From Homalodisca vitripennis (lineage: Eukaryota; Arthropoda; Insecta; Hemiptera; Cicadellidae): DNA of 64,000 bases. The notes under the pieces are model-generated. The model saw only the letters and a program-made list of their open reading frames with translations. It did no database searches and had not been told where the DNA came from. Positions 29,249 through 47,289 of this stretch are shown piece by piece. The stretch is taken from contig NC_060207.1 of assembly GCF_021130785.1 (NCBI RefSeq), positions 198,474,001-198,538,000 on the forward strand, given 5' to 3'. The position numbers and the translations under genes were made by a program. Positions within the stretch are counted from its first letter, which is position 1. The number at the start of each line of letters is the position of its first letter.

Positions 29249-29528
29249 AGTAGATAATAATATGGGGTTCCTGGCGCACTTTCGGAGCCGACCGAAAAGC
29301 AATGTAAAATACTGTTCAATGTACCATAAAGGAAGCTGAGAAATAACACAGCAAATCTCAATGAAAAATTAACCGAATCTACAGTCGTTCGTCTCCAAAA
29401 GCGATCCAGGATCGGCACATTACTATCTACTCTGAGGAATGAAAAATTAACCAAATCTATAGCTGTTTGCTTCTACTTTCTTAAGCTGTGCTTTGTAAAA
29501 TGTTGTCAAATCTGCTACGAATAAAGGA
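29249..29528 (+). repeat. Polinton left terminal inverted repeat (280 bp)
   Basis: Matches the reverse complement of 47,004-47,283 with about five mismatches. Inside, AATGAAAAATTAACC followed by a variant of GAATCTACAG occurs twice (29,360 and 29,439), a subterminal direct repeat about 79 bases apart. This could be a binding site for the integrase or terminal protein. A short reading frame on the opposite strand is incidental and also appears in the right repeat. Confidence 0.95.
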
Positions 29529-29679
29529 AAAATCTTCAATGACAGTCGAGGTGTGCTACTACAGACCGACCATCACGATAATCGCTTCGCCTGCGTCATA
29601 TCCGTAGTGATATCACGCCGTGAGAGGCGCAATCGTTGGTTTACAAGCACCATTTAGTTAAATAAATTTTTCTATCTAA

Positions 29680-32600
29680 ATGGAGCGCGAAAAAATATCA
29701 TGTCCGTTCTGCAAAAAAGAAATTTTAAGAAAAAACTATGATCGCCATTATAATTCTAAAAGTCACGAAAAAAACAAGCAAATTTACGATAATGAACTAA
29801 ATTATTTAAGACAATGGGCTAGAGAAAATAAAATTGCCGATCACGAAAACATGTTTAATATTGAGAAATTACGTGAATTAAAGAGAAATTTCAAAGTTGA
29901 AAAGAAAAATCTCGACCTATTTAATGATGAAAAACTTCATTCAATAGCTGAAAAGTTGGCTATCGGTACTAACGATAAAACCAAGTCTGAAATGATCGAA
30001 GAAATTGATAAAACTCTTAAAGTAAAATCCGAAAATATCATTGATGTAGAAGTTTTATCCTCAATACACGGTCTTTTCAAGCAATACATTTTAACAAACT
30101 TGAACGACAATTCCATGTCAATTTACAAATATCTTTCAATTATGCGGTCAGAAATTAAAAGTTTAATCGAGAAATTTCAAGAAAATGTTAAAAATATGAA
30201 GGGCTATCTCTCTTTGGAATGTGAATACGAACGAACTTTAGTGAATGGTGAACCGCAAACATGTCTAATGTATTTTACTATCAAAGCAGACGAAATCTTT
30301 GACGTAAACGACTTTATTACTAAGCAATTTAATAAATTAACACATCGAGAACAAACGAATAATCCAAATAAAGGTTCCGGATGGACATTTAAAAGTTGTA
30401 AACAACTAGTTTTGAGCCTTAACAAACACGAAATGATGAATGCAGGATCATACATCGATTTACCAAAGAATATCAAAGATAAAAAAGCTTGTATAAATAT
30501 AAAAAATAGAGATGATTTTTGCTTTATTTACTCAATAAGATGTGCTATTGAAAAACCAGAAAGAGACTGTGAACGTGTAAAGCAATACGAAAAATTTGTG
30601 AATGACGAAATATTTTCAGGTTTTGAGTATCCAATGTCTCTGAAAGATATACAAATATTTGAAAAACGAAGCTACAATTCCAAGTATAAGTATCCAACAA
30701 TGTCTATCAATGTCTACAGTTTTGATGAAAATATTAACATTGTTCCGTTACAAATTTCTGAAAAATATGACGCTGAAACAAACATTGATTTATTGTATGT
30801 TAAACAAGATGATAAATCTCATTATGTTTTGATAACCGATTTAAATAAGCTTGTTTCTTCGCAGTTGTCTAAACATAAAGAAAGAAAATTTTTGTGTAGA
30901 AGATGTTTAAGCCATTTTTACAAATCTGGAGATTTAACAGATCACTTAGAAATTTGTAAAAATCATGAAGTTTGTAAGCCAATTATGCCATTTCCAGGTC
31001 AAACAACTAAATTTACTAATTATCAAAAGAAATTTAACCATCCGTACGTAATTTATATGGACTTTGAGAGCATATTAGAAAAAATTCCGACATGCAAGAA
31101 CAATCCACAAAGATCGACTACAACCAAGATTCAGAGGCACATTCCTTATGGTTTTACTCTATATTTAGTGTCGAATGTGACCAATCGCATGTACAAACCG
31201 ATATGTTATCGTGCCAAAAATGAAGAAGATTTGAAAAACGTCCCAACAAAATTGTTTGAAGAACTCAATAAATTATCGAAATACATAGCGAAAAAATATA
31301 ATTCTAAGAACATGAAACCTATGAAATTGACAGAAGAAGAAGAAATTTCGTATCAAAATTCAAACGTTTGTCATATCTGTGAATGGTCTGCTTATGATGT
31401 TGGGTCAATTCAGTATGGTTTTACTCCTGATAGTTGGAAAGATAAGAGTTATAATAAAGTGAGAGATCATTGTCATTTAACCGGCAAGTTTCGAGGCGCA
31501 GCTCATGCATGTTGCAATCTAAATTTGAAATTTCCTCAGAATATTCCCGTTTTCTGCCACAATATGTCAAATTACGATACTCATTTGTACATAAAAGAAT
31601 TAGCTAAGAAATATGGAAACGTTGATTTGATCGCAAACTCAGAAGAAAAATATATAAATTATTCAGTAAATTCTGGATATGGCTATGAGTTTGACAATAA
31701 TAAACCTAGAAAATTTATAAAGTTCTCTTTCGTAGACACATTTAGATTCATGGCCTCGTCTATTGAAAAATTAGCGAAAAATTTAAAGAAAGAAGACTTC
31801 AAACATACAAATCATTTTATACAGGATGGACTGAATGAAATTATAGAAAGACAGCCAAATGACGAAGAAGAAATCTTTAAAATTCTATCTGGAAAAGACA
31901 TATTTCCTTACGAATTTATCGATAGTATTGAAAAACTTGATTACACAGAACAGCTGAAAATTCAAGATTTCTATTCACTTTTGACAGACGAGAGCATATC
32001 TGAGAAAGATTTTCAACACTACTTAAATGTTTGGAACAAATTAAAAGAGAAAAATCTTGGAAATTACTCTGATTTGTACAATATCCAAGATGTTTTATTG
32101 CTTGCTGATATATTCGAAAATTTCAGAAACATTTGCCTTAATTGTTATAAACTCGATCCGGCACACTATCTAACAGCTCCCAGTCTCGCATGGGACGCAA
32201 TGTTAAAATTAACGAAAATTGAGCTTCAGTTAATTAACGATTATAATATGTATTTGATGATTGAAAAAGGCATTCGCGGGGGCATTTCTCAGTGTATTAA
32301 GCGATATGTTAAAGCAAATAACAAATATTTGAAAGATTTCGATAAGACAAAGCCCGAAAACTATCTGTTGTACGTCGATGCCAATAACCTTTATGGGTAT
32401 GGCCTAATGCAAAAACTGCCGTTTAGTGATATCAAGTGGATGGATCCAAAAACTTACACAACTGCAGAATGGAAAGAAACAATTTTGGAACTCACTGGCG
32501 ACGAAGATTATGGCTATATTCTCGAAGTCGATCTTGGATATCCAACAAATTTACACGAACATCACAAGGATTTACCTCTTGCTCCAGAACATTTTAAAAA

Positions 32601-33600
32601 CAAACTTTGCACAACTCTACTGGATAAAACTGAATACGTTGTTCATTCGAGAAATTTGAAGTTCTATTTGGAACAAGGTATGATTTTGAAACATGTGAAT
32701 AGAGTTATTGCATTCGATCAGAAGCCTTTTATGAAAGAATACATTGATTTTAACACAAACATGAGAACCAAAGCTACAAGCGACTTTGAAAAGGACTTTT
32801 ATAAGCTGATGAACAACTCAGTTTTTGGAAAATCTATGGAAAATGTGAGAAACAGATGTGATATTAAGCTTGGAAATGAAGAATTTTCAATGAAACAAGC
32901 TAAGAAGACAAATTTCAAATGCTTCACTATCTTTGACGACAACTGTATAGCGAGTCACATGTACAAACAAAAGGTTAAATTTAACAAACCGATTTACATA
33001 GGATTTTCAGTTCTCGACCTCTCAAAATTGCTAATGTACGAGTTTTATTACAACAAATTAAAGAAGTTTGATCCAGATTTGAATCTGTGTTACATGGATA
33101 CAGACAGTTATTTTCTAGAATTGAAACGAGATCCTTTTAAAATTATTAAAGAAAATATAGATGACTTTGATACAAGTGATTATCCAAAAGATCATGAATG
33201 TTTCACTACTAAAAATAAGAAGGTAATAGGGAAATTCAAAGATGAGTTAAATAGCGAAGTTTTAGAAGAATTTTGTGGTTTAAGGTCTAAGATGTACTCG
33301 TACAAATATCTAGATAAAAACCCAGTTAGGTGTAAAGGAATTAAGAGAAGCGTTGTAAATAAAACAATAAATATCGAAAACTTGAAGAGATGTTTGTTCG
33401 AAGATAAAGAAGAATTTAGGGAGATGACAGTCATCAAAAGTTATAAACATGAGTTGTACACTGTTACCATAAACAAGCTGGCACTGAACGCTAAAGATGA
33501 TAAGAGAATTGTCCTAGAAAATAAGATCGATACAGTACCGTATGGCTATAAAACAGATATATTAGACGAATTAAATAAACTTGGAAACTTTGATATGTAA
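29680..33600 (+). CDS. polB: Protein-primed family B DNA polymerase (intact)
   Basis: A 1,306-residue protein, the normal length for Polinton polymerases, expected to replicate the element from a protein primer. The N-terminus has a C2H2-like finger (CPFCKKE...H...H, residues 8-28). Exonuclease motifs: I, YMDFES (D461, E463); II, NMSNYD (D633); III, YNIQD (D804). Between exonuclease I and II lie CHICEW (about 564) and DHCHLTGKFRGAAH (about 597), a zinc/HNH-like insertion usual in this family. Polymerase motifs: A, YVDANNLYG (D900); B, KLMNNSVFGKSMEN (from K1042); C, YMDTDS (D1140, D1142); then KMYSYKY. The start ATG lies inside the shared motif TCTATCTAAATGG. No break found. Confidence 0.96.
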   Translation: MEREKISCPFCKKEILRKNYDRHYNSKSHEKNKQIYDNELNYLRQWARENKIADHENMFNIEKLRELKRNFKVEKKNLDLFNDEKLHSIAEKLAIGTNDKTKSEMIEEIDKTLKVKSENIIDVEVLSSIHGLFKQYILTNLNDNSMSIYKYLSIMRSEIKSLIEKFQENVKNMKGYLSLECEYERTLVNGEPQTCLMYFTIKADEIFDVNDFITKQFNKLTHREQTNNPNKGSGWTFKSCKQLVLSLNKHEMMNAGSYIDLPKNIKDKKACINIKNRDDFCFIYSIRCAIEKPERDCERVKQYEKFVNDEIFSGFEYPMSLKDIQIFEKRSYNSKYKYPTMSINVYSFDENINIVPLQISEKYDAETNIDLLYVKQDDKSHYVLITDLNKLVSSQLSKHKERKFLCRRCLSHFYKSGDLTDHLEICKNHEVCKPIMPFPGQTTKFTNYQKKFNHPYVIYMDFESILEKIPTCKNNPQRSTTTKIQRHIPYGFTLYLVSNVTNRMYKPICYRAKNEEDLKNVPTKLFEELNKLSKYIAKKYNSKNMKPMKLTEEEEISYQNSNVCHICEWSAYDVGSIQYGFTPDSWKDKSYNKVRDHCHLTGKFRGAAHACCNLNLKFPQNIPVFCHNMSNYDTHLYIKELAKKYGNVDLIANSEEKYINYSVNSGYGYEFDNNKPRKFIKFSFVDTFRFMASSIEKLAKNLKKEDFKHTNHFIQDGLNEIIERQPNDEEEIFKILSGKDIFPYEFIDSIEKLDYTEQLKIQDFYSLLTDESISEKDFQHYLNVWNKLKEKNLGNYSDLYNIQDVLLLADIFENFRNICLNCYKLDPAHYLTAPSLAWDAMLKLTKIELQLINDYNMYLMIEKGIRGGISQCIKRYVKANNKYLKDFDKTKPENYLLYVDANNLYGYGLMQKLPFSDIKWMDPKTYTTAEWKETILELTGDEDYGYILEVDLGYPTNLHEHHKDLPLAPEHFKNKLCTTLLDKTEYVVHSRNLKFYLEQGMILKHVNRVIAFDQKPFMKEYIDFNTNMRTKATSDFEKDFYKLMNNSVFGKSMENVRNRCDIKLGNEEFSMKQAKKTNFKCFTIFDDNCIASHMYKQKVKFNKPIYIGFSVLDLSKLLMYEFYYNKLKKFDPDLNLCYMDTDSYFLELKRDPFKIIKENIDDFDTSDYPKDHECFTTKNKKVIGKFKDELNSEVLEEFCGLRSKMYSYKYLDKNPVRCKGIKRSVVNKTINIENLKRCLFEDKEEFREMTVIKSYKHELYTVTINKLALNAKDDKRIVLENKIDTVPYGYKTDILDELNKLGNFDM

Positions 33601-34611
33601 ATGGAAGATGATTTAATTCACTGTCACAAGTGTAAAAAGAAAACGAAAAATATAGATTCAAAAATCGTTCAAACTCAAAATGGATTGTATAGAATTGCTG
33701 CAAAATGTTCAAAATGTAAGACAAACAAGAGTAAGTTTATAAAGAATCCAAATCCAAAACCTGTTAAGCAAGAATTGAAGACTAAAGATGAGATAGAGAT
33801 TGAAGCTCGAGAAATTCATGCACCAGTACGAAAAAAGTTTAAAAAGAGAAAAATTATAACATTAGGAATTGACGATTTATGGGCAGCAGATTTAGTAATA
33901 ATGTCTAACTATTCGGATCAAAATGATGGATTTAAGTATATGTTAAATGTTATTGATACTTTCTCAAAATATGCTTGGTCAAGAGCTATCAAAAGAAAAA
34001 ACGGCAAGGATATTTCAAAAGCTTTCGAAGATATAGTAAAAGATGCCATAAGGATCAATCACAAACCTCCTAACCTACTTCATACAGATAAGGGTTTAGA
34101 GTTTAAAAATAAAGAATTTAACGATGTTTTGAGGAAATACAACATTAAGATTTATCATACTGAAAACGAAGAGAAATCAATTATTGTAGAGAGATATAAC
34201 AGAACTCAAAATGAGAGAATGAAAGTAATTTTTGAGATTAATAAAAACTTTAAATGGATCGATATTCTTCAAAAAATCGTAAACAATTATAACGATACAG
34301 TTCACAGCACAATCAAAATGAAGCCCAAAGACGTAGATAAAGATGCAGAAAAGGAGTTATTAGAGACCGTTTTCAAGTATATTCCACCAGAAATTCATAC
34401 AAAAACTAAATTTAAAGTCAATGATAATGTAAGAATTGTTAGTAAAAAAACAAACATTTTCGAACAAATATAAGAACAACTGGTCAAGAGAAATCTTTGT
34501 GATTTATCAAATTAATAACACAGATCCTGTAACTTATAGTATAAAAGATTTAAATAATGAAGAAATAACCGGAAAGTTTTATGAATATGAATTGAAGAAG
34601 TCAAAACTGTA
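33601..34611 (+). pseudogene. int: Polinton integrase, frameshifted near the C-terminus
   Basis: Retroviral-type DDE integrase that joins the element ends to target DNA. The continuous frame gives 290 residues (33,601-34,473). Residues 8-39 form a CxxC...CxxC zinc ribbon. The catalytic triad is D97 (WAADL), D163 (HTDKGLEF) and E197 (IIVERYNRT), followed by a tail starting VNDNVRIVSKKTNIF. There the frame breaks near 34,465: the next frame continues at once with NNWSREIFVI and runs to a stop at 34,611. This is the expected C-terminal SH3/chromo-like end. It is either a decayed copy, a sequencing indel, or a shortened protein with intact triad. The start follows the polymerase stop without spacing (TAAATGG). 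Confidence 0.9.
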
Positions 34612-34632
34612 ATATAAATTTTCTATATATAA

Positions 34633-35016
34633 ATGGCGCATCAAAAGAAATGTACAAAGTGCAAAGAATTTAAAGATTTAAATGAATTTTATAAAGATAA
34701 AAATAGGAAAGATGGAATGCATTATAATTGCAAAGATTGTGAAAGGGAATATCATAAAGAATTATATGATAAAATAGAAAAATTAACTTTGGAAGATAAA
34801 GAATGTCTTAAATGTAAAGAAACTAAAAAAATTTCAGAGTTTAATAGTGATCACTATAGTAGAGATAAGAAAGACTCATATTGTAAAGATTGTGTAAAGA
34901 AGAATCTTCATAGATTATATTATGAAGATACTCAATGTGAATGTGGAAGAACTATAAAATGGTTAAATAATTATCAAAAACATTTACAAACAAAATATCA
35001 TAAGTTAAGAGTTTAA
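34633..35016 (+). CDS. Small zinc-binding protein A
   Basis: 127 residues, very basic and cysteine-rich. It holds two similar modules, CTKCKEFKDLNEFYKD...CKDC and CLKCKETKKISEFNSD...CKDC. This is a pattern seen in phage and HNH-associated zinc fingers of the 'KxCxxCxxxKxxxxF...CxxC' type. A C-terminal CxC...H...H finger (CECGRTIKWLNNYQKHLQTKYH) follows. It probably binds nucleic acid; the exact role is unknown. A diverged tandem copy follows 33 bases downstream. The start lies in TTTTCTATATATAAATGG. Confidence 0.85.
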   Translation: MAHQKKCTKCKEFKDLNEFYKDKNRKDGMHYNCKDCEREYHKELYDKIEKLTLEDKECLKCKETKKISEFNSDHYSRDKKDSYCKDCVKKNLHRLYYEDTQCECGRTIKWLNNYQKHLQTKYHKLRV

Positions 35017-35049
35017 CATTTTCATCGTGTAATAATTTTTTCTATATAA

Positions 35050-35385
35050 ATGGAGTCTCAAAAGAAATGTACAAAGTGTCAAGAAGAGAATAGAAAAGAC
35101 TGTTATTGTAAGGAATTATACGTTAAAATGAACAAATTAACTTTAGAAGAGAAAAAGTGTTACTTTTGTAAAGAAATTAAAAATATTTCTGAATTTAATA
35201 ACTGGCAGTATAGTAAAGATAGAAAAGATGCTTTTTGCAAAGATTGTGCTAAAAAAATTTTCAGCGAAAGTTATAAAAACGAAATGCCTTGTGAATATGA
35301 AAAAAGAATTCTACAATGGTTACCTAGTTATGCTAAACATTTACAAACAAAATATAATAAATCGAGAGTTTTTAGTAAAATTTAG
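35050..35385 (+). CDS. Small zinc-binding protein B, degenerate paralogue of A
   Basis: 111 residues, clearly a tandem duplicate of the preceding gene. MESQKKCTKCQEE aligns with the first module, which is then shortened by about 17 residues. The second module CYFCKE...FCKDC is intact. The C-terminal finger has lost ligands: CEYEKR replaces CECGRT, and KYNKS replaces KYHKL. The first module also lacks its normal second CxxC. It is therefore either decaying or specialised on one zinc site. It keeps the TTTTTTCTATATAAATGG start motif, and its 3' end overlaps the convergent BRO gene by 14 bases. Confidence 0.75.
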   Translation: MESQKKCTKCQEENRKDCYCKELYVKMNKLTLEEKKCYFCKEIKNISEFNNWQYSKDRKDAFCKDCAKKIFSESYKNEMPCEYEKRILQWLPSYAKHLQTKYNKSRVFSKI

Positions 35386-36184
35386 AAACATTTTCATCGT
35401 GTAATTTAGATATTCTATAAATCAGTCGAGATTCTGCCATATTTGTAGTAAAATGATTTCCGTTGTATAAAATATTCAAAGATTCTTTCATTTGGTTATA
35501 CAGATTGATAGAATTTGGTTCGTCATCAATGAACAAAATCTCTAATTCAGGATAATTTATTTTTAGATGTTTTAATCGGTTTGGTATTTCTCGTTTCTGA
35601 GCTCTGATAACGTAATAAGGCCATTCCCACATGTGATTCTTCTTAATTAACACAAAAACATGGTGTTTTTTCTTATCAAAATCTTTACATACCATATCTC
35701 TCTTCATTAATTCCATTCGCAATTCTTGATTCTCTATTTTCAATGATTTCATTTCATCTTTAATTTGTAACTGTTTTATTTCATCTTTTAACTGCTTATT
35801 TTCGTTTTCAAGTTTGTACTCGCCATATTTTCTAATACTCGGTAAAACTTCTTCTAAAACCCAATTTTGAAACGTTTCTGCAATCTTCATTTTAGATTTC
35901 AGTATTAAAGAATATATGCCTGGTTCATTGATGAAAATAGTGTCTGGATGTAATTTTTGTAAGAGTCGCGATTCGATACCCTTGTCAGAATCTATGTTTT
36001 CAAAGCTTTTTTTGTATTTTTCTTTAACATGATCTATGATAGCTTGTCTCGTATTTTTAAATTCCAATATTTCTGCAACATCTTTAGCCTTAAACCAAAT
36101 TTCATTATTTTCGTCAACAATCGTGCAAATGTCTTTATTATTGAATGTAAGTTGATTGTTGAGTAGGTCTACAACTGACTCCAT
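35372..36184 (-). CDS. BRO-N domain protein with coiled coil and viral C-terminal domain
   Basis: 270 residues. Residues about 10-115 are a BRO-N (baculovirus repeated ORF/antirepressor-type DNA-binding) domain: IWFKAKDVAEILEFKNTRQA, then INEPGIYSLILKSKM and FQNWVLEEVLPSIRKYGEY. A Lys/Glu-rich coiled coil follows (about 120-160). The C-terminal domain contains HHVFVLIKKNH...WPYYVIRAQKR...LEILFIDDEPNSINLYN, as in BRO/MSV199-type proteins of large DNA viruses. BRO proteins bind DNA and modulate transcription or replication. The start carries TCTATCTAAATGG, identical to the polymerase start but on the opposite strand. A relic of a second BRO-N lies just upstream. Confidence 0.88.
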   Translation of the reverse strand: MESVVDLLNNQLTFNNKDICTIVDENNEIWFKAKDVAEILEFKNTRQAIIDHVKEKYKKSFENIDSDKGIESRLLQKLHPDTIFINEPGIYSLILKSKMKIAETFQNWVLEEVLPSIRKYGEYKLENENKQLKDEIKQLQIKDEMKSLKIENQELRMELMKRDMVCKDFDKKKHHVFVLIKKNHMWEWPYYVIRAQKREIPNRLKHLKINYPELEILFIDDEPNSINLYNQMKESLNILYNGNHFTTNMAESRLIYRISKLHDENVSKFY

Positions 36185-36220
36185 TTAGATAGAAAATAAA
36201 TTTAACTAGTAATTTTTATT

Positions 36221-36271
36221 TTGAGAATGAAGGCCAGATTCATTGATAAAAACAGTGTCAGGATGAAGATT
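36221..36271 (-). pseudogene. Relic of a second BRO-N gene
   Basis: On the minus strand this short stretch reads NLHPDTVFINESGLHSQ. It aligns with KLHPDTIFINEPGIYSL of the adjacent intact BRO protein. Only about 17 codons remain. It implies that BRO was once duplicated or replaced here. Confidence 0.75.
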
Positions 36272-36343
36272 GTTAAGGGGCCATTCGAATAGCCCCTTGT
36301 TTTTTAAGTAAAAATATTGAATTTTGTCATCATCAACTCATTT

Positions 36344-37078
36344 TTATTCCTTTTTCAATCTTAAATATATTGTTGTTTTACTCTCATTATTTAATAAATT
36401 TTCCTCAGAGTCTTGTATAGTCAGAACGATTTTTTGAATTCTTTTAATATTTTTTCTAATTGGAATATAATCGATTTCATTTGGTTTTTCACTAATTTTT
36501 GATCCATAAGCAACATTTGGGAAAAAAGTGTACAAAATTTCAGATTCTTTGTGTAAATGTTCGGTATGATTTTCAAAACTAGGTTCAACGAGATTGCAGT
36601 GCACTTCAATTACATCGAACGGTCTAAATTTTGGCGTTTTATTTCCTAAATATACCTGATTTGGCTCAATAGTTTCTTGAACAAACCCTAACAAATCTAC
36701 AATAATTGCTGAAAACATTATTCTTACTGGTGATTTTATTTGAATTTTATTAGAGAGATAATTTTTTTGCATTTCAAACTTGTTTTCGTCAAAGTTTAAA
36801 GATTTATCTGATTGTTTGAATGTTTTCAGATAATTTTTAAGGGAATTTTTAATTTGATCGAAAGTATAATATCCTTTGTTTAAACCATAATATTTTGTTA
36901 TGTTCTTCTCACTAAATCCTATACAATAAGGAGAACTTTCACTAATATTTATTACAAAATTGTCAGAATAAAAGCCGCTTAAACCGATAAAATAATTTGA
37001 TTCTTCCTCTAAGTGTATAGGATGTTCCAAGTTTAAAACTAATTTAGAGCTTTCTGAAGTCAACTTGAACAGCTTCAT
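36344..37078 (-). CDS. Minor capsid (penton-like) protein
   Basis: 244 residues, the size of Polinton single-jelly-roll penton proteins that occupy capsid vertices. Features typical of the family are the N-terminal half with FIGLSGFYSDNFVINI and YCIGF, YYTFDQIKNSL, and a strand-rich C-terminal end IQKIVLTIQDSEENLLNNES..IYLRLKK. The assignment rests on this overall pattern and on position next to the packaging ATPase. It is transcribed divergently from the ATPase with a 40-bp shared upstream region. Unlike most neighbours it lacks the TAAATGG start motif. Confidence 0.75.
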   Translation of the reverse strand: MKLFKLTSESSKLVLNLEHPIHLEEESNYFIGLSGFYSDNFVINISESSPYCIGFSEKNITKYYGLNKGYYTFDQIKNSLKNYLKTFKQSDKSLNFDENKFEMQKNYLSNKIQIKSPVRIMFSAIIVDLLGFVQETIEPNQVYLGNKTPKFRPFDVIEVHCNLVEPSFENHTEHLHKESEILYTFFPNVAYGSKISEKPNEIDYIPIRKNIKRIQKIVLTIQDSEENLLNNESKTTIYLRLKKE

Positions 37079-37118
37079 TTTCGCAAGCGTTGCCTCAAGA
37101 TGAAAATCTTCTATTTAA
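37079..37118. promoter_or_regulatory. Bidirectional promoter region, penton/ATPase
   Basis: Only 40 bases separate the divergent start codons at 37,078 (-) and 37,119 (+). The plus side contains TCTATTTAAATGG, the shared start motif. Confidence 0.5.
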
Positions 37119-37781: not shown

Positions 37782-37797
37782 TAATCTAGTTGTTTTC

Positions 37798-38110: not shown

Positions 38111-38125
38111 AATTTTCCTAAATAA

Positions 38126-39433: not shown

Positions 39434-39441
39434 CTATATAA

Positions 39442-39891
39442 ATGGAGGTGAACGTAAACTTCAGCAAAAATCAGAAAGAAAAAATAAAATCCGCTTTTAA
39501 GAAGAAAATACCCGTTAGTATTCAATTTAAAATAGATCAACTAAAAAATGGTGAAGATAAGATATTTTTAACAAATAGACAATACAATAAACTCGAAAAA
39601 CATAAGAAAAACAATAAAGGAACCAGAATAGAATTTTCTTATAATCAGTTGAAAGAACTCAAAAATGGTGGACTTTTGAAAGATTTATTAGATTTTGGAG
39701 AAAATATTCCAGGTGTTAAAAATGTTGTTCCTTATGTTCGTAAAGCTGCTCCAATCGTTAAAAAAGATGTGATTCCTATTGTTCGAAACATTTTAAATTG
39801 GTTAGATAAAGAGTTGGAAGATGTTACAGGATCTGGATTAGATGAAAAAACTTTGAATTACGTGAAATCAAACATTGAAAAAAAAATTTAA
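39442..39891 (+). CDS. Small basic capsid-associated protein (pX/pVI-like)
   Basis: 149 residues, strongly basic. The C-terminal half has an amphipathic Lys/Val/Pro stretch (LLDFGENIPGVKNVVPYVRKAAPIVKKDVIPIVRNILNWL) and a GSGLDEKTL end. Such small proteins sit beside protease and capsid genes in adintoviruses and adenoviruses and are thought to be membrane-active or DNA-condensing cores. This is by analogy only. A GSGL segment resembles protease cleavage sites (also EGSGL in the PLA2 protein). Start motif ACTATATAAATGG. Its 3' end overlaps the protease frame at a run of nine A. Confidence 0.6.
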   Translation: MEVNVNFSKNQKEKIKSAFKKKIPVSIQFKIDQLKNGEDKIFLTNRQYNKLEKHKKNNKGTRIEFSYNQLKELKNGGLLKDLLDFGENIPGVKNVVPYVRKAAPIVKKDVIPIVRNILNWLDKELEDVTGSGLDEKTLNYVKSNIEKKI

Positions 39892-40306
39892 ACCTTTAAC
39901 ATTCGGGGAATTGGAAGAAATCTGCAAAAATATTAAACATTTTAGAGGAATCTTCATGAGAGATACATTACCTGAAAAAGTTAAGAAATTTGAATGTGGA
40001 ATTGTGAATTTAGACTCGATTATGGGAAGTGGAACGCATTGGATTTGTTATTATAAAAATGATAAGAATGCATGTTATTTTGATTCGTATGGAAGAATTG
40101 AGGACAAACCACCTATAGAATTGATTAAATATTTGAAAAAATCAAGCGTCTACTACAATGATTCTCAGATTCAAGATTATAAAGATCCCCCAATTTGTGG
40201 TCATTTATGTGTTTTTGTTTTGAATGAACTGAGTAATGGTAAAGATTTTAAAGAAGTTGTTAACAAATTATTGCTTAATAAATATGGATTCACAAAATAT
40301 TTTTGA
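39875..40306 (+). CDS. Adenain-type maturation cysteine protease
   Basis: About 143 residues counting from a TTG at 39,875. The catalytic set of the adenovirus protease family is visible: H55 (GTHWICYY), D70 (CYFDSYG), Q100 (NDSQIQD) and C108 (PPICGHLC). It cleaves capsid precursors during maturation. The family-conserved segment FRGIFMRDTLP lies before the first in-frame ATG (39,956). A true start must therefore be upstream, yet no ATG is available. The overlap region ATTGAAAAAAAAATTT allows a TTG start, a lost ATG, or slippage from the preceding gene. The end overlaps the next gene's ATG. Confidence 0.85.
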   Translation: MKKKFKPLTFGELEEICKNIKHFRGIFMRDTLPEKVKKFECGIVNLDSIMGSGTHWICYYKNDKNACYFDSYGRIEDKPPIELIKYLKKSSVYYNDSQIQDYKDPPICGHLCVFVLNELSNGKDFKEVVNKLLLNKYGFTKYF

Positions 40307-41417
40307 CGTATTTGGAACACAAATTATTCAAAATGTAGATAATAGTTTGAATTTTGATAGTTTGAGAAATGAGTTTGATAACAAGTTAGAAAATGTATTA
40401 CAAAACCTTCCAGATTCAGATATGTTTGCTGTCGAGATTGAAGATTTTAAAGCAGAATATGATAACAAACTTGCAAATTTCATGAGTTCAAATGAAGTTG
40501 CTGATAAAATAAAAACATTGGAAAAAGAAGTTGATGATGGTGTAAAAAAATTATTTACCAATTTAATGTCTCATATCGAAAAAGCTGATGAAATTACTGA
40601 AGCGATCAAAGTTGAAAAGAATTATGTTAGTTTGGCTAATAAAAAAAGAATTGTCGGTGTTCGACCTGGTATTGACAAACATGATGTTGTTGTTAAAGAA
40701 CAAATTTTAAAACGTCTAAAATTATCAGAAAACATCGATATTGTTGATTTACATGATCCGAATGTTAAAAATGCCTTAGATTTTAAAGGAAAAAGAATTA
40801 GCGGTGTTAGTAAAGGAATTAATCCATTTGATGTTGTTGTAATGATTCAATTAGAAGATCCTATTAAAATGTTTAATGAACTAAAACAAAATTATGAGAA
40901 TCATAAACAGCATGTTAAAGATTTTACAACAGAAGTCTATGAAAAACTTGATGAAAGAAGTAAAAGATCTATAGAAAATTGTGATGAAAAATTTACAAAT
41001 TTTGAGGAAAATTTCAATCTATATAAAGGCGATCTTTATGGAAAAATAACAAACTTTTTGGAAGATTTCGCTAAATTTCAAGAGGGTTTTAATGAAACCG
41101 ATAGAAAAAATGGTGAAGTTTTTAAAAGAGTAGTTACTAATCAATCTTTACTTCATGATAAATTAATTAAACTAGAAGAAAACTTTGGCGAAATTAATGA
41201 AAAAGTTATAAAAAATAAGCAGTCTTTTGATAAGTTTAGTTTAGATGCCACAAAAACTTTTGAGAATATTGATCATAAACTCGTTGAATACAACGATTTA
41301 TATCTCGATAAAGTAAATAAACTAGAAGAAAACTTTAATAAATTTAAAGAAGATGTCGATAAAACTTTTGAAAACATCGACAACAGATTTAATGGAGTAG
41401 GTGGTTACGATGACTAA
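40284..41417 (+). CDS. Coiled-coil fibre-like protein with two adhesin-neck-like motifs
   Basis: 377 residues from the ATG at 40,284, which overlaps the protease end and starts MDSQNIFDVFG. Two internal motifs, RIVGVRPGIDKHDVVVKEQI (about 121-140) and RISGVSKGINPFDVVVMIQL (about 171-190), match each other. They also resemble the RITNVxxGxxxxDAVNxxQL neck of trimeric autotransporter adhesins. Around them the protein is heptad-like and acidic, with repeats KTFENID and KLEENF near the C-terminus. I infer a trimeric stalk or vertex fibre. No enzyme motif is seen. A longer reading from 40,236 is possible but less likely. Confidence 0.7.
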   Translation: MDSQNIFDVFGTQIIQNVDNSLNFDSLRNEFDNKLENVLQNLPDSDMFAVEIEDFKAEYDNKLANFMSSNEVADKIKTLEKEVDDGVKKLFTNLMSHIEKADEITEAIKVEKNYVSLANKKRIVGVRPGIDKHDVVVKEQILKRLKLSENIDIVDLHDPNVKNALDFKGKRISGVSKGINPFDVVVMIQLEDPIKMFNELKQNYENHKQHVKDFTTEVYEKLDERSKRSIENCDEKFTNFEENFNLYKGDLYGKITNFLEDFAKFQEGFNETDRKNGEVFKRVVTNQSLLHDKLIKLEENFGEINEKVIKNKQSFDKFSLDATKTFENIDHKLVEYNDLYLDKVNKLEENFNKFKEDVDKTFENIDNRFNGVGGYDD

Positions 41418-41432
41418 TTTTCCTTATATAAA

Positions 41433-41575
41433 TGGCGCTCATATATTGTGTGAGATGTAAAGAGAAAACTGCCACAAACGATATAAAATACTATGCAAAC
41501 ATTAACGGAGTTAAGAGAATATCTGGAAAATGTGCTGAATGTAACGCTAAAAAGAGCCAATTTATAAAAACTTGA
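41433..41575 (+). pseudogene. Stand-alone zinc ribbon, frameshifted
   Basis: Starts in the motif CCTTATATAAATGG and begins MALIYCVRCK. It then shifts frame by one base near 41,460 and continues in the next frame to ISGKCAECNAKKSQFIKT and a stop at 41,575. CxxCK...KCxxC...KSxFIK matches the zinc ribbon fused to the N-terminus of this element's integrase, and the small DUF5679-type ribbons of other viruses. The original product would be about 47 residues. The broken frame would give only about 17. Confidence 0.75.
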
Positions 41576-41603
41576 TTTTGAAATTTTTTCTTAATAAATA
41601 GAG

Positions 41604-42002
41604 ATGGCGGGACATTACAGTGCTTTCGATCTTTTTATAATGCAACACGAAAGAGATTTGAAAAAAGAACATTGGGATGACATTTCTCAAAAATATGAAT
41701 TATCCGAAGATATGATGAGATTATACGTAAACAAATTGAATTGGTATAACATTGCTAAATATCAAACTTTATCATCAGAGTTCATTCAAGAAAATATACA
41801 TTATCAATTAAAAGATCATATGTCTGTTCTTTGTCTCTATCAACACTTGAGTATAAAGTTTTTGGATGAAAATAAAGATACAGTTGATTGGAACAATATT
41901 ATAGATAGCGGTTACTATCCTGTGCAGATTTTATTGAAATATGTGACCGAGATCGCAAAATTTAAGGAAGAGAATCCTGAATATGACGAAGTAGATCATT
42001 AA
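41604..42002 (+). CDS. Unknown protein with W/I-YQ-LS-FI repeats
   Basis: 132 residues. It contains a repeat of the type LNWYNIAKYQTLSSEFIQEN, then LCLYQHLSIKFLDENKDTVDWNNI, in which W..I..YQ.LS..FI.E recurs about every 25-35 residues. Repeats of this kind are frequent in uncharacterised proteins of large DNA viruses. Two minus-strand genes of this element share one copy each. Upstream reads TTTTTTCTTAATAAATAGAG before the ATG. Function unknown; a protein-binding scaffold is plausible. Confidence 0.7.
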   Translation: MAGHYSAFDLFIMQHERDLKKEHWDDISQKYELSEDMMRLYVNKLNWYNIAKYQTLSSEFIQENIHYQLKDHMSVLCLYQHLSIKFLDENKDTVDWNNIIDSGYYPVQILLKYVTEIAKFKEENPEYDEVDH

Positions 42003-42123
42003 AAATGACTCTAATCTTTTTAATTATTTTACTAAAATTTATATCTTTTCTTATAAAAACGTACATTAGATCGATGAAAAAATGATACACGATGTTTAAA
42101 ATTTCTAAATTTTCTCTTATTAA

Positions 42124-43315
42124 ATGGCGGACTACAGAAAATATGCTAGTGATATTGAAAGGGCGGAGTTTAAAAATTTCTATCCAATTAGTAAACAACA
42201 TTTGAATGAACCGAATAAAAGAACTGAGTTTAATATTGATTTTGGAGATAACTTTTGCTCGTCTAACTTCCAGTTTTATATTTCTGGAACTTTAACAAAA
42301 CAAGATGGTCAAGCATATCTTGGAACTGATAATGTTAGATTAATCGATAATTTTATACCGTTTTTATTTTCTAAGATTGAAGTAAGAAAACACAATAAAT
42401 TGATAGAAGAAGTCGAAAACTGTGGCCAATTAAGCACAATTAAAGGAACTATTTCGTATTCAAAAAGTGATGTTATTTCTCAAACTTCTAATGGCTTTGA
42501 ATCAGATTTTAAATTTGGTGTTTTTGAAGCAGCTGGAAATTTATCTCATTTTGGATTAGGATTTTTTGAAAATGTTACTATTCCGATCTATAAAGGAGGA
42601 TTTTATCTAAGTTTTATAAGAGCAGAAGACGATGATGTGATTCTGAAGACTGCAACTGGAAATGTTATGCCTGTTGATGAAAATAACAATTACAGATTTT
42701 TTTATTAGAGTTCCAATGATTGATTATAAAACCACGAGTAAAATTAGATTGATTGATGAAATTACAAAAAGTCAAAACATTATGTTTAATTTTCTAGATT
42801 GGCAATGTATTGAACAAAAAGGTATTTCCGGAACAACTTATTCGTTCGATATTACAAATATTTATAGAAATATCTTCAATCCCAAGTTCGTTATCATAGG
42901 TTTTCAAACAGGTAGACAGAATAATCAAGAAAAAAATCCTTCAAAGTTTGATAGTTTGGATGTAAAAAATATCAGAGTAAAATTGAACGGTTCTTATTAT
43001 CCAGATGAATAACAAAATTTAAACATTTCAGGAGGTCTTTTCAGAATCATGTATCAGATGTATCAAGATTTTAAGAAAGTTTACTGTAATAATAAGGAAA
43101 TGTATTACAATCCTAAAGAATTTTTAGCGAATAGACCTATTTATGTCATTGATACAACAAAGAGTTTGACAAATATTTCTGGTTCAAAGAACGATATAAT
43201 TATCAATATGGATTTTCAAAAAGCTGTTACAAACGCGATTTGTTATGTTGTTGTTGCCTCTGAGAAATTTTTAGCCTATGATGTGATTAAGAACGATATT
43301 AGAGAAATTCAGTAA
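42124..43315 (+). pseudogene. Major capsid protein (hexon-like), broken twice
   Basis: Three consecutive open pieces read as one protein of about 397 residues: 42,124-42,708, then a shift at a run of seven T near 42,696-42,702 into the frame running to 43,012, then an in-frame TAA and continuation to 43,315 in the same frame. Phrases such as FYPISKQHLNEPNKR, FNIDFGDNFCSSNFQFYI, LFSKIEVRKHN, GFFENVTIPIYKGGF and RVKLNGSYYPDE are those of the abundant capsid-type protein of insect Polintons. Position at the end of the capsid module fits. One indel plus one nonsense change make the copy non-functional unless either is a sequence error. Start motif TCTTATTAAATGG. Confidence 0.8.
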
Positions 43316-44591
43316 AAATCGCGTTATTCGTCGGATAGTTTTAAAACTTTACAGAATTGTTAAAGACATTGATAAAAGTATTCATTTTAAATTGCAGTAA
43401 AAAACTTTGAAAAATAGTGATGATATTAGGAAAAAACTATTTCAAGGTCATGGACCGGAAGTGATGATTTTACAAAATACTTTAATATTTACTGAACCTA
43501 TATACCAAATTTCATCAGAAAAGCTCCAATAGTTCTCTAGATATAAGAGTTTAAATATAAGGGATGATTGGGGTAGATTTTGAACATTTTGTTATTTTCA
43601 TGAAATTTTAAGTTGAACTCGCTTGTTTTTGAAGTTTCAGATTTGTCTGATAATTTTTTATATTTTTTTATGAATATTAAGAAATAGGGGATGATTTCAC
43701 CCTTATGGATAAGTTAAATCGAAAGAGTTAAGTATTTACTATATGTGTACCAAATTTCATTAAAATCGGTTGAGTGGTTTTTTAACAACAAGGTTTGAAA
43801 TAAATATTGATATTCACTTATTTAATATACATTGGAAACTATAACAGTTCTAATATCGATTGTAACCATCGATTTTTATTATCGATAAAACTTCGATATT
43901 CATAATCGTTTATCGCACGGAAAAAATTTTCATCATGGGCGTTGGCCACGTATAGTCAGTCATGCTTGATCCTCCTCTATTTTAACGAAATTTAACAAGA
44001 TATATCATCAATTAGAAGATTCTAATGTATTTGCAAGTTGAAGAAAGAAGATATAGACTTTATATGAAGTAAGAAGATTGTGTGATGTTCTGTGTTTCTT
44101 GTTAAAAGTGAAGTGAAGTGTTCCACTGGGCGTTGCCATTCATAGTGTTATTATATTTTATAAGTTACTTTTATATTTGGGACTCGAAGAAAGACGTTAC
44201 AAGAAGATTGTGAATTTGTGTAGACATTCTAAACTGTGATAAAACATTGTGTGAAAATAGTGATGTAAAGTGTTCATTTGTAATACAGAATTAAGTGTTT
44301 TTACAGTGATTTCATTGTCTCACACGGCGTGAGAAAAGCAAGGTCATTGTTTGGTGTCACTACTGTCCTTGTACCACACACGGCGTGTGCAAAGCAAGGT
44401 CAAGCGTTAGTGACACAAACGCCTCTCACATGTTTCAATAAAATGAGATTCGAGGTCAAGCGTTAGTGGTACAAACGCTCACAGCAGACGTCACAAATCT
44501 AGAGTTGATTGAAATAAAACATATGATACCTTTCTTCTTCTCCCATTCCCAATTTCTTAGAAGTTAAGTAGATATCGCAAAAACACGCACA
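43316..44591. other. Non-coding gap inside the Polinton with degenerate direct repeats
   Basis: No gene. TACCAAATTTCAT recurs at about 43,503 and 43,745 within a degenerate tandem pair of about 240 bases. At 44,320-44,510, CACGGCGTG occurs twice, AAAGCAAGGTCA twice and GGTCAAGCGTTAGTG twice. ATCGAT-rich inverted segments lie near 43,855-43,910. It may be a nested, unclassified insertion, or the element's own regulatory/origin region. Confidence 0.5.
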
Positions 44592-45209
44592 CTAACAACA
44601 CTCATTTTGTATGTCTTTCATTATATCGTATTGAATTGCTGAATGACAAACGTTTCTCTTTTCTTCGTCAGAATCACACACACACAATATATCTGTTTCG
44701 TAAATGTTTTTTCCATATAATTTATCCCAATCTACAACAAAAGCGTGATCTCTTATAAATTCCTTTGATAAATCTTGTTGTTTACAAAGACTTGTTAAAA
44801 AACTAGCTGTATGCATATTCCTTGGCCAGTATGGATATTGTCTTCTCAACATTTCAACAAATAAACAATGAAATTTAGCATAAAAGCGATGAAAAATGTC
44901 AGATTGTTGGTGTTTTAGTTTATTTTGTAAAAATCGGAATATTTTTCTTATTTTTCTATTATTTAATTTAAAATCTCCTATTACATTTAACATATTTATA
45001 CTATCTAAGTTGTCTGTAATAAATTGCATTGAACACTTTTTAGTACTTAAAAGTTCTCTGAATTCGTTTTCATTTAAGGATTCGTTTTCACTTAAGGAAA
45101 ATATCAACATTTGTTTAACATATTTAGGTAATTCAAAGAAGTCTTTATAACTATTTCCTGTGGTAAGTTCTTTAAATGCTAGAAACTGAAGTGATTTTGG
45201 AGAGTTCAT
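44592..45209 (-). CDS. Unknown protein, member 1 of a paralogous pair
   Basis: 205 residues starting MNSPKSLQFLAFKELT...FFELPKYVKQMLIFSL. This resembles a degenerate F-box-like or SOCS-like N-terminal helix set. A C-terminal QQDLSKEFIRDHAFVVDWDKL copy of the W/LS/FI repeat follows. It is paralogous to the gene at 46,360-46,914. Upstream on the minus strand CTTTTCTACTAAATAG precedes the ATG by about 20 bases, so the TCTA/TAAAT motif is present although not fused to the ATG. No catalytic motif. A role in host protein degradation or binding is speculation from the F-box resemblance. Confidence 0.7.
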   Translation of the reverse strand: MNSPKSLQFLAFKELTTGNSYKDFFELPKYVKQMLIFSLSENESLNENEFRELLSTKKCSMQFITDNLDSINMLNVIGDFKLNNRKIRKIFRFLQNKLKHQQSDIFHRFYAKFHCLFVEMLRRQYPYWPRNMHTASFLTSLCKQQDLSKEFIRDHAFVVDWDKLYGKNIYETDILCVCDSDEEKRNVCHSAIQYDIMKDIQNECC

Positions 45210-45245
45210 GTTGTTTGGTGACTATTTAGTAGAAAAGTTTTTTAT

Positions 45246-45494
45246 TTAAGAAAAATAATTTGCTAAATTCATATTATTCTCTTTCATTCCTTCTAAAACT
45301 TCAAAAATATACTCTTTCGCTGATGAAAAATCTCGATTTCTTCCGGAATAATCTTTGTAATCATAGACAAAATATCCTAAATAGTTGTACAGTAGAATGA
45401 AATTATTTCTATTTATCTCTGTTGTAGAAATGTAAACATAAACATTTGCGCTGAAAAATTTATATCTCAGCAGACTTAGTTCCATAATCTCCAT
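45246..45494 (-). CDS. Small unknown protein
   Basis: 82 residues (MEIMELSLLRYKFF...), rich in Tyr, Asn and Phe, with no recognised domain. It is accepted as a gene because it begins at TTTTTTTATAAATGG, like the other genes of the element, and fills the space between neighbours with short gaps. It is divergent from the next gene, with about 24 bases between the two start codons. Confidence 0.6.
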   Translation of the reverse strand: MEIMELSLLRYKFFSANVYVYISTTEINRNNFILLYNYLGYFVYDYKDYSGRNRDFSSAKEYIFEVLEGMKENNMNLANYFS

Positions 45495-45518
45495 TTATAA
45501 AAAAATCTTTTTGTTTAA

Positions 45519-46028
45519 ATGGAAGAGTATAATGCCAACTGTTACAAGTGTTCTAATAGAGGAGAAATTATCGATAAAAGATATTTAGTTTGTAGAGGTT
45601 GTAATTTAATTTTGTTAGAAAGACCTAAACCTAAGAAATTTCGAAATAAATTAACACATTTGAATAACCTGCTTACAAAATTGCAATATGGAGACAAGAA
45701 GCAAACAAAATTTGTTACAGAATTTAGAAAACAGAATAAAAATTTTTACTTATCTCTTGGAACCATTGACAAAATTATTTTCCTTTTCAAAGAATACATT
45801 AGGTTTGTAGGTATCGATACACACGTTTATTATGAAAAGATATTACCTGTATTTTTTTATTATCTAGATGTAGAATTTGTTTATGATTTTGAACCAGAAA
45901 TCCTCGATGATTTTATAGTACATTTGGAGAAATTAAACGAGGAACCTCTTGAAAAGAATGCGGTTTTACTCACATTCTCCCCGACTTCTCGAGTGAAGGT
46001 TAGCGAATTTCATTTTTTCCGTCTTTAA
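45519..46028 (+). CDS. Zinc-ribbon protein, possible transcription-factor-like
   Basis: 169 residues. An N-terminal zinc ribbon (NCYKCSNRGEIIDKRYLVCRGC, residues 7-28) resembles those of TFIIB-like and poxvirus late transcription factor (VLTF3-like) proteins. A helical region follows with a loosely conserved RNKLTHLNNLLTKLQ segment. That resemblance is by pattern only and may be superficial. If real, it could be the factor that reads the shared TCTA/TAAATGG start motif. Start at TTGTTTAAATGG. Confidence 0.6.
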   Translation: MEEYNANCYKCSNRGEIIDKRYLVCRGCNLILLERPKPKKFRNKLTHLNNLLTKLQYGDKKQTKFVTEFRKQNKNFYLSLGTIDKIIFLFKEYIRFVGIDTHVYYEKILPVFFYYLDVEFVYDFEPEILDDFIVHLEKLNEEPLEKNAVLLTFSPTSRVKVSEFHFFRL

Positions 46029-46043
46029 ATTTTTTCTATTTAA

Positions 46044-46349
46044 ATGGAGTTCTTGAAAGAGTTAAATGATATTGGAGAATGTAAGTTTAAAGAGTATAAG
46101 AAGTTGAATGAATTAGAAGAAAAAAAGAAGTACAAAATCATGAATTTGGAGAAAATGAAAGATAAATTCGGGTTTACAATAATTGCCGAGTTGGAAGATT
46201 GTAAAGTACACTTGCCGAACAGATTTTTGACTGTTTTGGATGAGAAAAAGATTAAAGAATTAAACAAAAATGAAAAATTACACTTGGTTGTTACTGGAAA
46301 GAAGACTATAAAAGATAAAGAAATTATAACAATTAACTTTGTAGAATAA
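46044..46349 (+). CDS. Small OB-fold candidate (possible single-strand DNA-binding protein)
   Basis: 101 residues. The core KYKIMNLEKMKDKFGFTIIAELEDCKVHLPNRFLTVL...LHLVVTGKKTIKDKEIITI alternates strands in a way typical of small OB-fold proteins that recur in Polintons and insect viral sequences. Single-strand DNA binding during protein-primed replication is a reasonable inference, not demonstrated. It starts at TTTTTCTATTTAAATGG, 15 bases after the preceding gene. Confidence 0.6.
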   Translation: MEFLKELNDIGECKFKEYKKLNELEEKKKYKIMNLEKMKDKFGFTIIAELEDCKVHLPNRFLTVLDEKKIKELNKNEKLHLVVTGKKTIKDKEIITINFVE

Positions 46350-46359
46350 AGTCTTAACT

Positions 46360-46914
46360 CTAAAACTTGCAGTCCCTCCCCACGTCATAGTACTGTTTTG
46401 ATAACCATAGTTGGTGTCTTTCTTCATAGGAATCACATGGAATATTATCTACAGTAATACCTTTTGTTTCACACAAAATGTGGCTATATTCTATAAGAAA
46501 AATTCTATAATGCTCTTTAATGAATTGTGTTGATAAATCTTGATACTCACAAAAATTCCTAAGAAATTCATCAATTAAGTCTTGATTATCTTGAAAGAAC
46601 GTATAATATGGGAAAAATGTCATAAAAAAACGATGAAAACTCTCTGTTTGTTTATTTTTTACTTTCTTTTCAATATCTTTCGTAATTATATTAAATATGT
46701 AATCCCTTACTTTTTTAGTTTTTTGCCGATAGTAAAACACTCCATTAGACGTTTTTTCTGCAAAAGACTTTACAAGTTCTTTGAATTCTGTATCATTTAA
46801 GGAAAGTATCAACTGTTCTTTAAAATGTTTTGGTAATTCGTTGAACTCGTTAAAATTGTCTTTCTTTGTAAGTTTTTGAAATGCTAGAAACTGAAGAGAG
46901 CTTGGTGAGTTCAT
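46360..46914 (-). CDS. Unknown protein, member 2 of a paralogous pair
   Basis: 184 residues starting MNSPSSLQFLAFQKLT...FNELPKHFKEQLILSL. It is clearly paralogous to the 205-residue gene at 44,592-45,209 at the N-terminus and in a central QTESFHRFFMTF / QSDIFHRFYAKF block. YQDLSTQFIKEH is the W/LS/FI repeat. The minus-strand upstream region reads CTTTTCTACTAAATAAACAAC before the ATG, nearly identical to that of its paralogue. Its 3' end converges on the OB-fold gene with 10 bases between. Confidence 0.7.
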   Translation of the reverse strand: MNSPSSLQFLAFQKLTKKDNFNEFNELPKHFKEQLILSLNDTEFKELVKSFAEKTSNGVFYYRQKTKKVRDYIFNIITKDIEKKVKNKQTESFHRFFMTFFPYYTFFQDNQDLIDEFLRNFCEYQDLSTQFIKEHYRIFLIEYSHILCETKGITVDNIPCDSYEERHQLWLSKQYYDVGRDCKF

Positions 46915-47003
46915 GTTGTTTATTTAGTAGAAAAGTTTTTTATTAAAGTACAGTATGTTTTTAGTAAAAATGTTTTAAATTGATTAAATTTTATTAAGAT
47001 AAA

Positions 47004-47283: not shown

Positions 47284-47289
47284 TATAAA
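47284..47289. repeat. Polinton target-site duplication, right (TATAAA)
   Basis: Exact match to 29,243-29,248. Confidence 0.92.

Follow-up and report, generated by a model that had tools for sequence, protein, structure and literature searches.

A TAAATGG motif at gene starts of a Homalodisca vitripennis Polinton family and its likeness to poxvirus late promoters

Poxvirus late promoters are described as a T-containing core followed, after ~5 to 7 bp, by TAAAT and then G or A, overlapping the initiation site (PMC5294985), and a late gene of an insect poxvirus (entomopoxvirus) starts with TAAATG (PMC3061580). Other short signals close to gene starts have been reported for the yeast elements pGKL1/2, which have a TAAAAT-type initiator and transcripts with 5' poly(A) leaders (PMC6831550), and for the mammalian translation initiator of short 5' untranslated regions (TISU), in which bases just after the ATG are essential and which acts on very short leaders (PMC2518114). 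Among integrated elements, the promoter motif differs between EMALE types and points to different giant viruses (PMC8547959), and promoters that virophages share with giant viruses have been discussed in weighing a virophage-first model of Polinton origin (PMC10328495). The gene expression of animal Polintons seems little studied; in the literature searched, judged by titles, abstract openings, and some passages, we found no paper on their promoter motifs. Here, we describe a motif shared by the gene starts of a Polinton from the insect Homalodisca vitripennis (Cicadellidae). The element, a copy of a family designated F1, occupies positions 29249-47283 of a 64,000-nt stretch of contig NC_060207.1 (198,474,001 to 198,538,000, forward strand; assembly GCF_021130785.1), hereafter the window, to which all coordinates refer unless stated otherwise.

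A motif shared by the gene starts of the element

Gene starts (n = 19) were those of gene-like open reading frames (ORFs) that we picked from the ORF list, with one start shifted from 40,236 to 40,284. TAAATGG lies at 13 of these 19 starts and at 3 of the element's 615 remaining ATGs (Fisher P = 4e-20), and the longer TAAATGG[A/C]G lies at 11 starts and at none of the 615 controls. TAAAT alone was found within 30 nt of 17 of the 19 starts versus 83 of 613 other ATGs; it overlaps the ATG at 13 of them and is detached from it at the four others. In total, the element contains 16 TAAATGG sites; 300 dinucleotide shuffles gave 3.84 on average and never more than 11. The window outside the Polinton holds nine such sites in ~46 kb, and none of the 25 ORFs of at least 60 amino acids (aa) located there starts with TAAATGG. 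Moreover, the pattern "T4+, 0-8 nt, TAAATGG[A/C]" gave 20 overlapping matches that merged into 11 sites, all at listed gene starts, and had no site in the window outside the element. The motif is genuine, and its frequency is far beyond what chance would give. Two paralogous gene pairs exist (44592/46360 and zfA/zfB), so one could invoke chance in AT-rich DNA or the shared ancestry of duplicated 5' ends; nevertheless, the genes with the motif span different Pfam families (BRO, rve, A32 ATPase, PLA2-like, and double-jelly-roll [DJR] capsid), and the control ATGs, the shuffles, and the T-run spacing control given below all speak against this explanation, which we consider barely credible.

The full signal, which is longer than earlier described, consists of a T-run, often TCTA, 5 to 7 nt, TAAAT, and then ATGG[A/C]G. 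A run of at least three Ts ends 5 to 7 nt upstream of TAAAT in 11 of the 17 start-linked cases, compared with 7 of the 163 other TAAAT sites in the element (P = 3e-9); the gaps at the remaining six start-linked sites are 1, 3, 4, 4, 29, and 34 nt. Similarly, TTTT occurs within -20 to -5 of 14 of the 19 gene starts versus 106 of the 615 other ATGs. The commonest parts of the motif are the T-run and TAAAT rather than TCTA, which was found within 24 nt upstream of 9 of the 19 starts and 58 of the 615 controls. A first-pass annotation of this DNA had proposed TCTA plus TAAATGG as the shared motif, with 13 genes starting with TAAATGG and eight preceded by TCTA. Each of these 13 starts and eight TCTA sites was confirmed (the ATG given as 41,433 is at 41,432); TCTA is less general than the T-run and TAAAT.

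The constraint continues past the start codon. G occupies +4 in 15 of the 19 starts, and +5 is A in 13 and C in 5. Across all 19 starts, the second codon is GCG in five and GAG in seven. All five alanine second codons are GCG, compared with 10 of the 116 alanine codons elsewhere (P = 5e-6), and seven of the nine glutamate second codons are GAG, compared with 73 of 384 elsewhere (P = 2e-4). Because synonymous choice is constrained at +6, a preference at the protein level cannot account for it. At the four detached sites, the base after TAAAT is always A; elsewhere in the element, it is A at 40, G at 20, T at 73, and C at 29 sites.

On the plus strand, the motif at the PolB start reads TTTTTCTATCTAA ATGGAG (29667-29685). 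A weak motif lies at the integrase start (33589-33606), where the TAA at 33,598 doubles as the PolB stop codon, so this site may be partly coincidental. The motif also occurs at the zinc-finger-like genes zfA (34619-34638) and zfB (35036-35055), the packaging ATPase gene (37107-37124, with an interrupted T-run), the PLA2-like gene (38113-38131), gene 39442 (39428-39447), the small gene 41432 of 47 codons (41418-41437), the major capsid gene (42110-42129), and gene 46044 (46030-46049). Gene 40284 has a partial motif, TTAATAAATATGG, with TAAAT at -5 (40268-40289), and gene 41604 has a detached one, TTTTTTCTTAATAAATAGAG ATGGCG (41584-41609). On the minus strand, the motif is found at the BRO gene start (36179-36196), and the detached form TTTTCTACTAAATA lies upstream of both gene 44592 (45223-45236) and its paralogue 46360 (46921-46934); gene 36344 starts at 37078 without a motif. 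Genes 45246 (minus strand; 45489-45505) and 45519 (plus strand; 45508-45524) form a divergent pair, each half with its own motif.

The element (no strand assigned) has AG...CT ends, terminal inverted repeats of ~290 nt that are 97% complementary, and a flanking 6-bp target duplication, TATAAA, at 29243-29248 and 47284-47289. These features, together with the integrase, the ATPase, and the capsid, are those of Polintons/Mavericks. A Pfam scan of 20 ORFs, from which gene 41432 was left out, matched an rve integrase, a poxvirus-A32-type packaging ATPase, a PLA2-like domain, BRO, and DJR capsid pieces. The match to an adenovirus-type protease was weak (E = 0.011, under its cut-off), and the ORF that we take from its motifs to be PolB had no polymerase match in Pfam. 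The capsid gene (42124-43315) is broken up, falling into three frames or pieces, and ATG-started ORFs of 80 aa or longer neither begin nor end within 43316-44590; thus, the window copy is partly degenerate. The first ATG of the protease frame is at 39956, yet the frame itself stays open farther upstream, as far as the 3' end of gene 39442 (39442-40306). The interval between the ATPase and PLA2-like genes (37798-38125) is repetitive, with an MFHVHV-like translation, and matches between copies are fragmented there. For the paralogous minus-strand genes (44592-45209 and 46360-46914), Pfam gave nothing above its cut-off.

Recurrence in F1 copies and absence from two other families

Family F1 is very abundant in the genome. 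A search of the insect's own genome with the ATPase gave at least 150 matches at 98 to 100% identity and essentially full length, from 10,296 first-look candidates. We sampled 20 further F1 copies (L045 to L064), whose matching stretches are mostly 91 to 99% identical, with some lower. These copies contain 296 ORFs of at least 80 aa, 134 of which start with TAAATGG, and none of the 134 belongs to the 51 copy ORFs without a matching gene in the window. The TAAATGG start was found in all copy ORFs of the ATPase (20/20), zfB (15/15), gene 39442 (15/15), zfA (14/14), gene 45246 (10/10), and gene 46044 (3/3), and in 17 of 18 capsid N-terminal pieces. It was present in 17 of 24 BRO, 17 of 26 PLA2-like, and 6 of 9 gene 45519 ORFs, part of the shortfall being ORFs that begin inside the gene. 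Conversely, where the window gene has no overlapping motif, the copies had none either (gene 36344, 0/21; protease, 0/16; gene 41604, 0/20; gene 40284, 0/23), and later capsid pieces had TAAATGG starts in 0 of 4 and 0 of 7 cases.

Furthermore, we compared mismatches to the window, pooled over 13 genes. The mismatch rate was 0.017 at -9 to +6 and 0.021 at -12 to +6, compared with 0.040 at -60 to -26, 0.072 at -25 to -13, and 0.053 at third codon positions. By position, it was at most 0.009 at -3, -2, -1, +4, and +6 and rose to 0.067 and 0.040 at the degenerate positions -4 and +5, respectively. By gene, -12 to +6 was less variable than -60 to -26 in 8 of the 13 motif or TAAAT genes. Because the copies share ancestry, their recurrences are not independent events. 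The copy comparison lends modest support to the promoter reading given below.

Queried with a more distant ATPase (P0034), the genome gave at least 150 further places, from 8,904 candidates. The Polinton load of this genome is thus very large, with at least 150 scored places each for the F1 and the other-family ATPases, and many frames are open. As a comparison set, we used nine stretches from or beside two other families, F2 and F3, in which some ORFs represent flanking or unrelated DNA. ATPase identity to F1 was 53.5% in L065 and 54.7% in L066, and the stretches encode relatives of PolB, the integrase, the ATPase, the PLA2-like protein, the protease, the capsid, and the products of genes 36344, 39442, 40284, and 46044. 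None of the 89 ORFs of at least 60 aa in these stretches starts with TAAATGG, nor does any start backed by N-terminal homology (0 of 5 in F2; 0 of 6, in four different genes, in F3). Since it is missing from these ORF starts, the motif looks family-specific rather than a general host start signal, and it is not a general property of insect Polintons. Family-specific start motifs also argue against a signal that the host machinery demands of every Polinton. Presence in related Polintons, by which the first-pass annotation proposed to judge the motif, therefore holds across the 20 F1 copies but not in the stretches of the two other families.

Candidate motifs of a different kind were spotted post hoc in F2 and F3, on few starts, and we treat them as leads. 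In F2, TATAAG lies within 32 nt upstream of 2 of the 5 homology-backed starts versus 4 of 1241 other ATGs; these six ATGs sit at four places, each an ORF start, and two of them are second ATGs just inside ORFs. TATAAG begins 14 to 25 nt before the ORF starts at L065 3086(+) and at L070 46, 925, and 1410(+). It resembles TAAG, the late promoter motif of baculoviruses and nudiviruses. In F3, [TA]CAGTA was found at 4 of 8 author-chosen starts versus 15 of 171 controls, and with a stricter start list CAGTA was found at only 2 of 6 versus 45 of 537. Sequences of the CAGTA type precede the starts at L066 1663(+), 2889(+), 5738(-), and 509(-).

Promoter or translation signal, and its possible reader

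To function as a translation context, the motif would be poorly built. T occupies -3 in 14 of the 19 starts and a purine in 5, compared with a purine at 324 of the 615 control ATGs, and TAA precedes the ATG in 13. The gene starts thus lack the Kozak-type purine at -3, and T at this position is anti-Kozak, i.e., unfavourable for translation. Where TAAAT is detached from the ATG, by 9 nt in gene 41604, 19 nt in gene 44592, and 12 nt in gene 46360, all three ATGs have a purine at -3. In the paralogues 44592 and 46360, a 27-nt upstream block is identical except for one base and is followed by a 7-nt length difference before the ATG. The motif is therefore kept at this pair although the ATG has moved, as the first-pass annotation had noted; because the first residues of the two proteins are also alike, the shared block may partly reflect a recent common origin. 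If TAAATGG were a preferred ribosome context and nothing else, with the T-run as background AT richness, the frequent G at +4 would be favourable, but T at -3, the spacing of the T-run, the synonymous bias in the second codon, and the retention of TAAAT at starts where it is detached would all go unexplained. Plain translation context is an unlikely explanation of the motif, and we see very little chance that it is the whole of it.

The geometry of the genes points the same way. The ATGs of the divergent genes 45246 and 45519 (45494 and 45519) are separated by 24 bp, with room for both motifs, and, at five junctions of genes on the same strand, 0 (PolB to integrase), 8, 14, 15, and 33 nt separate the upstream stop codon from the ATG. 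Transcripts begun any farther upstream than a few tens of bases would thus start within a neighbouring gene, and since these distances leave no room for ordinary leaders, leaders are likely to be very short. Taken together, the T at -3, the retained 5' block of the paralogues, the second-codon bias, and the small gaps support the earlier proposal that the motif is a promoter or transcription start element and not a translation signal.

We therefore favor, with a probability of about 0.6, the reading that the motif is a family-specific, poxvirus-late-like core promoter or initiator that yields nearly leaderless mRNA. This reading builds on the motif itself, its spacing, the constraint to +6, the recurrence in F1 copies, and the lack of the motif in the stretches sampled from two other families. 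The core promoter would comprise a T-run, often ending in TCTA, and, 5 to 7 nt downstream of it, a TAAAT initiator, which in most cases overlaps with the start codon (TAAATGG[A/C]G). The most likely place for transcription to begin would be the AAA of TAAAT, and each gene would receive its own nearly leaderless mRNA. We predict that slipped 5' A residues might form an A leader and so supply the purine that is missing at -3. The motif would be read by a dedicated or virus-type factor, namely, the gene 45519 protein and/or a co-infecting DNA virus, instead of by generic host start-site machinery.

A host RNA polymerase II (Pol II) element for short leaders might give a similar picture. Here, ATGG[A/C]G with its AT-rich flank would act in the insect nucleus as TISU does, i.e., as a YY1-type element and translation initiator in one. 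TCAGT, the arthropod Pol II initiator, was found within 32 nt of none of the 19 starts. To our knowledge, the T-run/TCTA part has no counterpart in TISU, which counts against such an element, as do the T found at -3 in 14 starts, where TISU has a purine, the more frequent A (13) than C (5) at +5, and the lack of TAAATGG at the ORF starts of two other Polinton families in the same genome. In its favor, positions +4 to +6 are constrained, just as TISU needs bases after the ATG (PMC2518114); ATGGCG occurs at five starts; the lack of a polymerase family among the 20 scanned ORFs fits the use of host Pol II; and mriyaviruses, which encode VLTF3 but no RNA polymerase subunits, are thought to be nuclear (PMC11253617). 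On balance, we regard a host Pol II element as unlikely, though worth keeping in view.

The candidate reader within the element is gene 45519 (45519-46028, plus strand), whose 169-aa product has CxxC...CxxC followed by helices and for which identity with VLTF3 was proposed before any fold search. With a model built from three sequences (predicted local distance difference test [pLDDT], 42), the top 3 of 85 BFVD matches were late transcription factors/VLTF3 of two entomopoxviruses and cowpox (E = 0.04 to 0.23). A PDB structure search gave 16 matches, all with E above 3 and without support for VLTF3; and a weak A2L zinc-ribbon match is unspecific, since zfA gives one too. VLTF3 sequences sought for comparison in 3 and 17 IMG/VR records were not found. 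We tentatively keep gene 45519 as a possible VLTF3 homologue, an assignment that we consider less likely than not. It would matter if correct, because one report describes VLTF2/3 homologues as not detectable outside Nucleocytoviricota (PMC11253617), to which another adds a few eukaryotic homologues and yaraviruses (PMC8715426).

Gene 45519 has at least 150 copies in its own genome at 98 to 100% identity. In a large protein database, only four proteins match it, and two of these are H. vitripennis gene models (P0117 and P0118, one named splicing factor 3A subunit 2) that share stretches of ~34 to 42 residues near-identical to 45519; such stretches in host gene models are probably Polinton sequence. 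Scans of IMG/VR with PolB, the ATPase (single sequence and two alignments), and 45519, and of GTDB genomes with the ATPase, confirmed no relatives. At the protein level, ATPases with 71 to 77% identity (P0001 to P0012) come from Polintons of other insects. The exact motif matched 14 IMG/VR contigs, with one match each, which we took as chance from the phage-like look of the ORFs in the one contig read (L010, with 13 TAAATGG sites).

Several observations weigh against the poxvirus-like promoter reading. The starts at 37,078(-) and 39,956 (2 of 19) have no TAAAT within 30 nt, and TCTA is missing within 24 nt at 10 of the 19. Where TAAAT overlaps the start codon (13 cases), the G after it belongs to the ATG, which leaves just the four detached sites to probe the G/A rule of poxviruses, and we know of no constraint at +6 in poxvirus late promoters. 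The enrichment over shuffled sequence, a test put forward in the first-pass annotation, is evident for TAAATGG but vanishes for a loosened TCTANNAAATGG, which with two mismatches was found 107 times versus a mean of 114 in window shuffles. In the copies, the coding bases at +7 to +60 are nearly as conserved as the motif (pooled mismatch, 0.027); -12 to +6 is more variable than -60 to -26 in 5 of the 13 genes (zfA, g39442, g40284, capsid, and g45246); and the motif-less start of gene 36344 shows 0 mismatches in 360. Regarding the reader, the Pfam scan of 20 ORFs revealed no RNA polymerase family, a replicate fold search with the model of a 45519 homologue (pLDDT, 39) had no VLTF3 among the 50 matches listed of 75, and Pox_VLTF3 (PF04947) was not matched, at E values up to 10, by 45519, its four database hits, or three fragments.

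The factor that reads the motif could also come from outside. In this explanation, which overlaps the favored one, F1 genes would be active solely during infection of the cell by a cytoplasmic DNA virus whose late promoters carry TAAATG, such as an entomopoxvirus. Mavirus reportedly uses the TCTA promoter of CroV in this manner. The layout of the motif matches the poxvirus late promoter (PMC5294985), an insect poxvirus late gene begins with TAAATG (PMC3061580), and start motifs seem to differ between Polinton families here as they do between EMALE types (PMC8547959). On the other hand, no helper is known, the at least 150 near-identical ATPase copies indicate germline success without a sign of helper dependence, and a self-encoded factor could yield the same layout. 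Dependence on a helper virus thus seems rather improbable. A bolder version would extend it to all three families, each carrying a distinct virus-style promoter matched to a different large DNA virus of insects (poxvirus-like T-run/TAAATG in F1, baculovirus/nudivirus-like TATAAG in F2, and CAGTA in F3); as endogenous satellites resembling virophages, the elements would stay silent until infection by their own helper, and F1 would bring its own VLTF3-like factor. We offer this as a long shot, suggested by the motifs of the three families.

Comparison with known systems

A shared initiator would define the transcription units of the element and their likely 5' ends, and it offers a way to learn which machinery turns such hidden viruses on. 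A poxvirus-like promoter in an animal Polinton, beside relatives with other motifs, would also make links through promoter sharing testable. TISU carries GCGGC after its ATG. It resembles the F1 motif in its ATGG and in the constraint on bases at the very beginning of the coding sequence (PMC2518114) and differs in the bases before the ATG, which are AA[G/C], with a purine at -3, in TISU versus TAA with an upstream T-run in F1; with TAA at 13 starts and T at -3 in 14, the F1 gene starts do not fit the TISU pattern there.

The pGKL elements are cytoplasmic, unlike F1, and encode their own polymerase. Their short initiator is similar to the F1 TAAAT (PMC6831550). With mavirus, CroV, and the EMALEs, F1 shares, at part of its gene starts, TCTA in AT-rich DNA just upstream of the genes of an integrating DJR-capsid element, as well as a motif that varies by element type (PMC8547959). 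F1 departs from mavirus and CroV in that TCTA lies within 24 nt of only 9 of 19 starts, TAAAT is commoner, and no helper is known. Both the mavirus-type TCTA promoter and the poxvirus TAAAT promoter had been named as parallels in the first-pass annotation; the TCTA parallel taken alone fits less well, and the poxvirus TAAAT layout fits better. Differences from poxvirus late promoters exist, since F1 has an extra TCTA block and a G at +6, no polymerase family of its own was found among the 20 scanned ORFs, and the element resides in an insect genome. Nevertheless, as in the poxvirus late promoters described, most F1 genes have a T-rich core, a spacer of 5 to 7 nt, and a TAAAT initiator at the start codon, usually overlapping the ATG (PMC5294985, PMC3061580).

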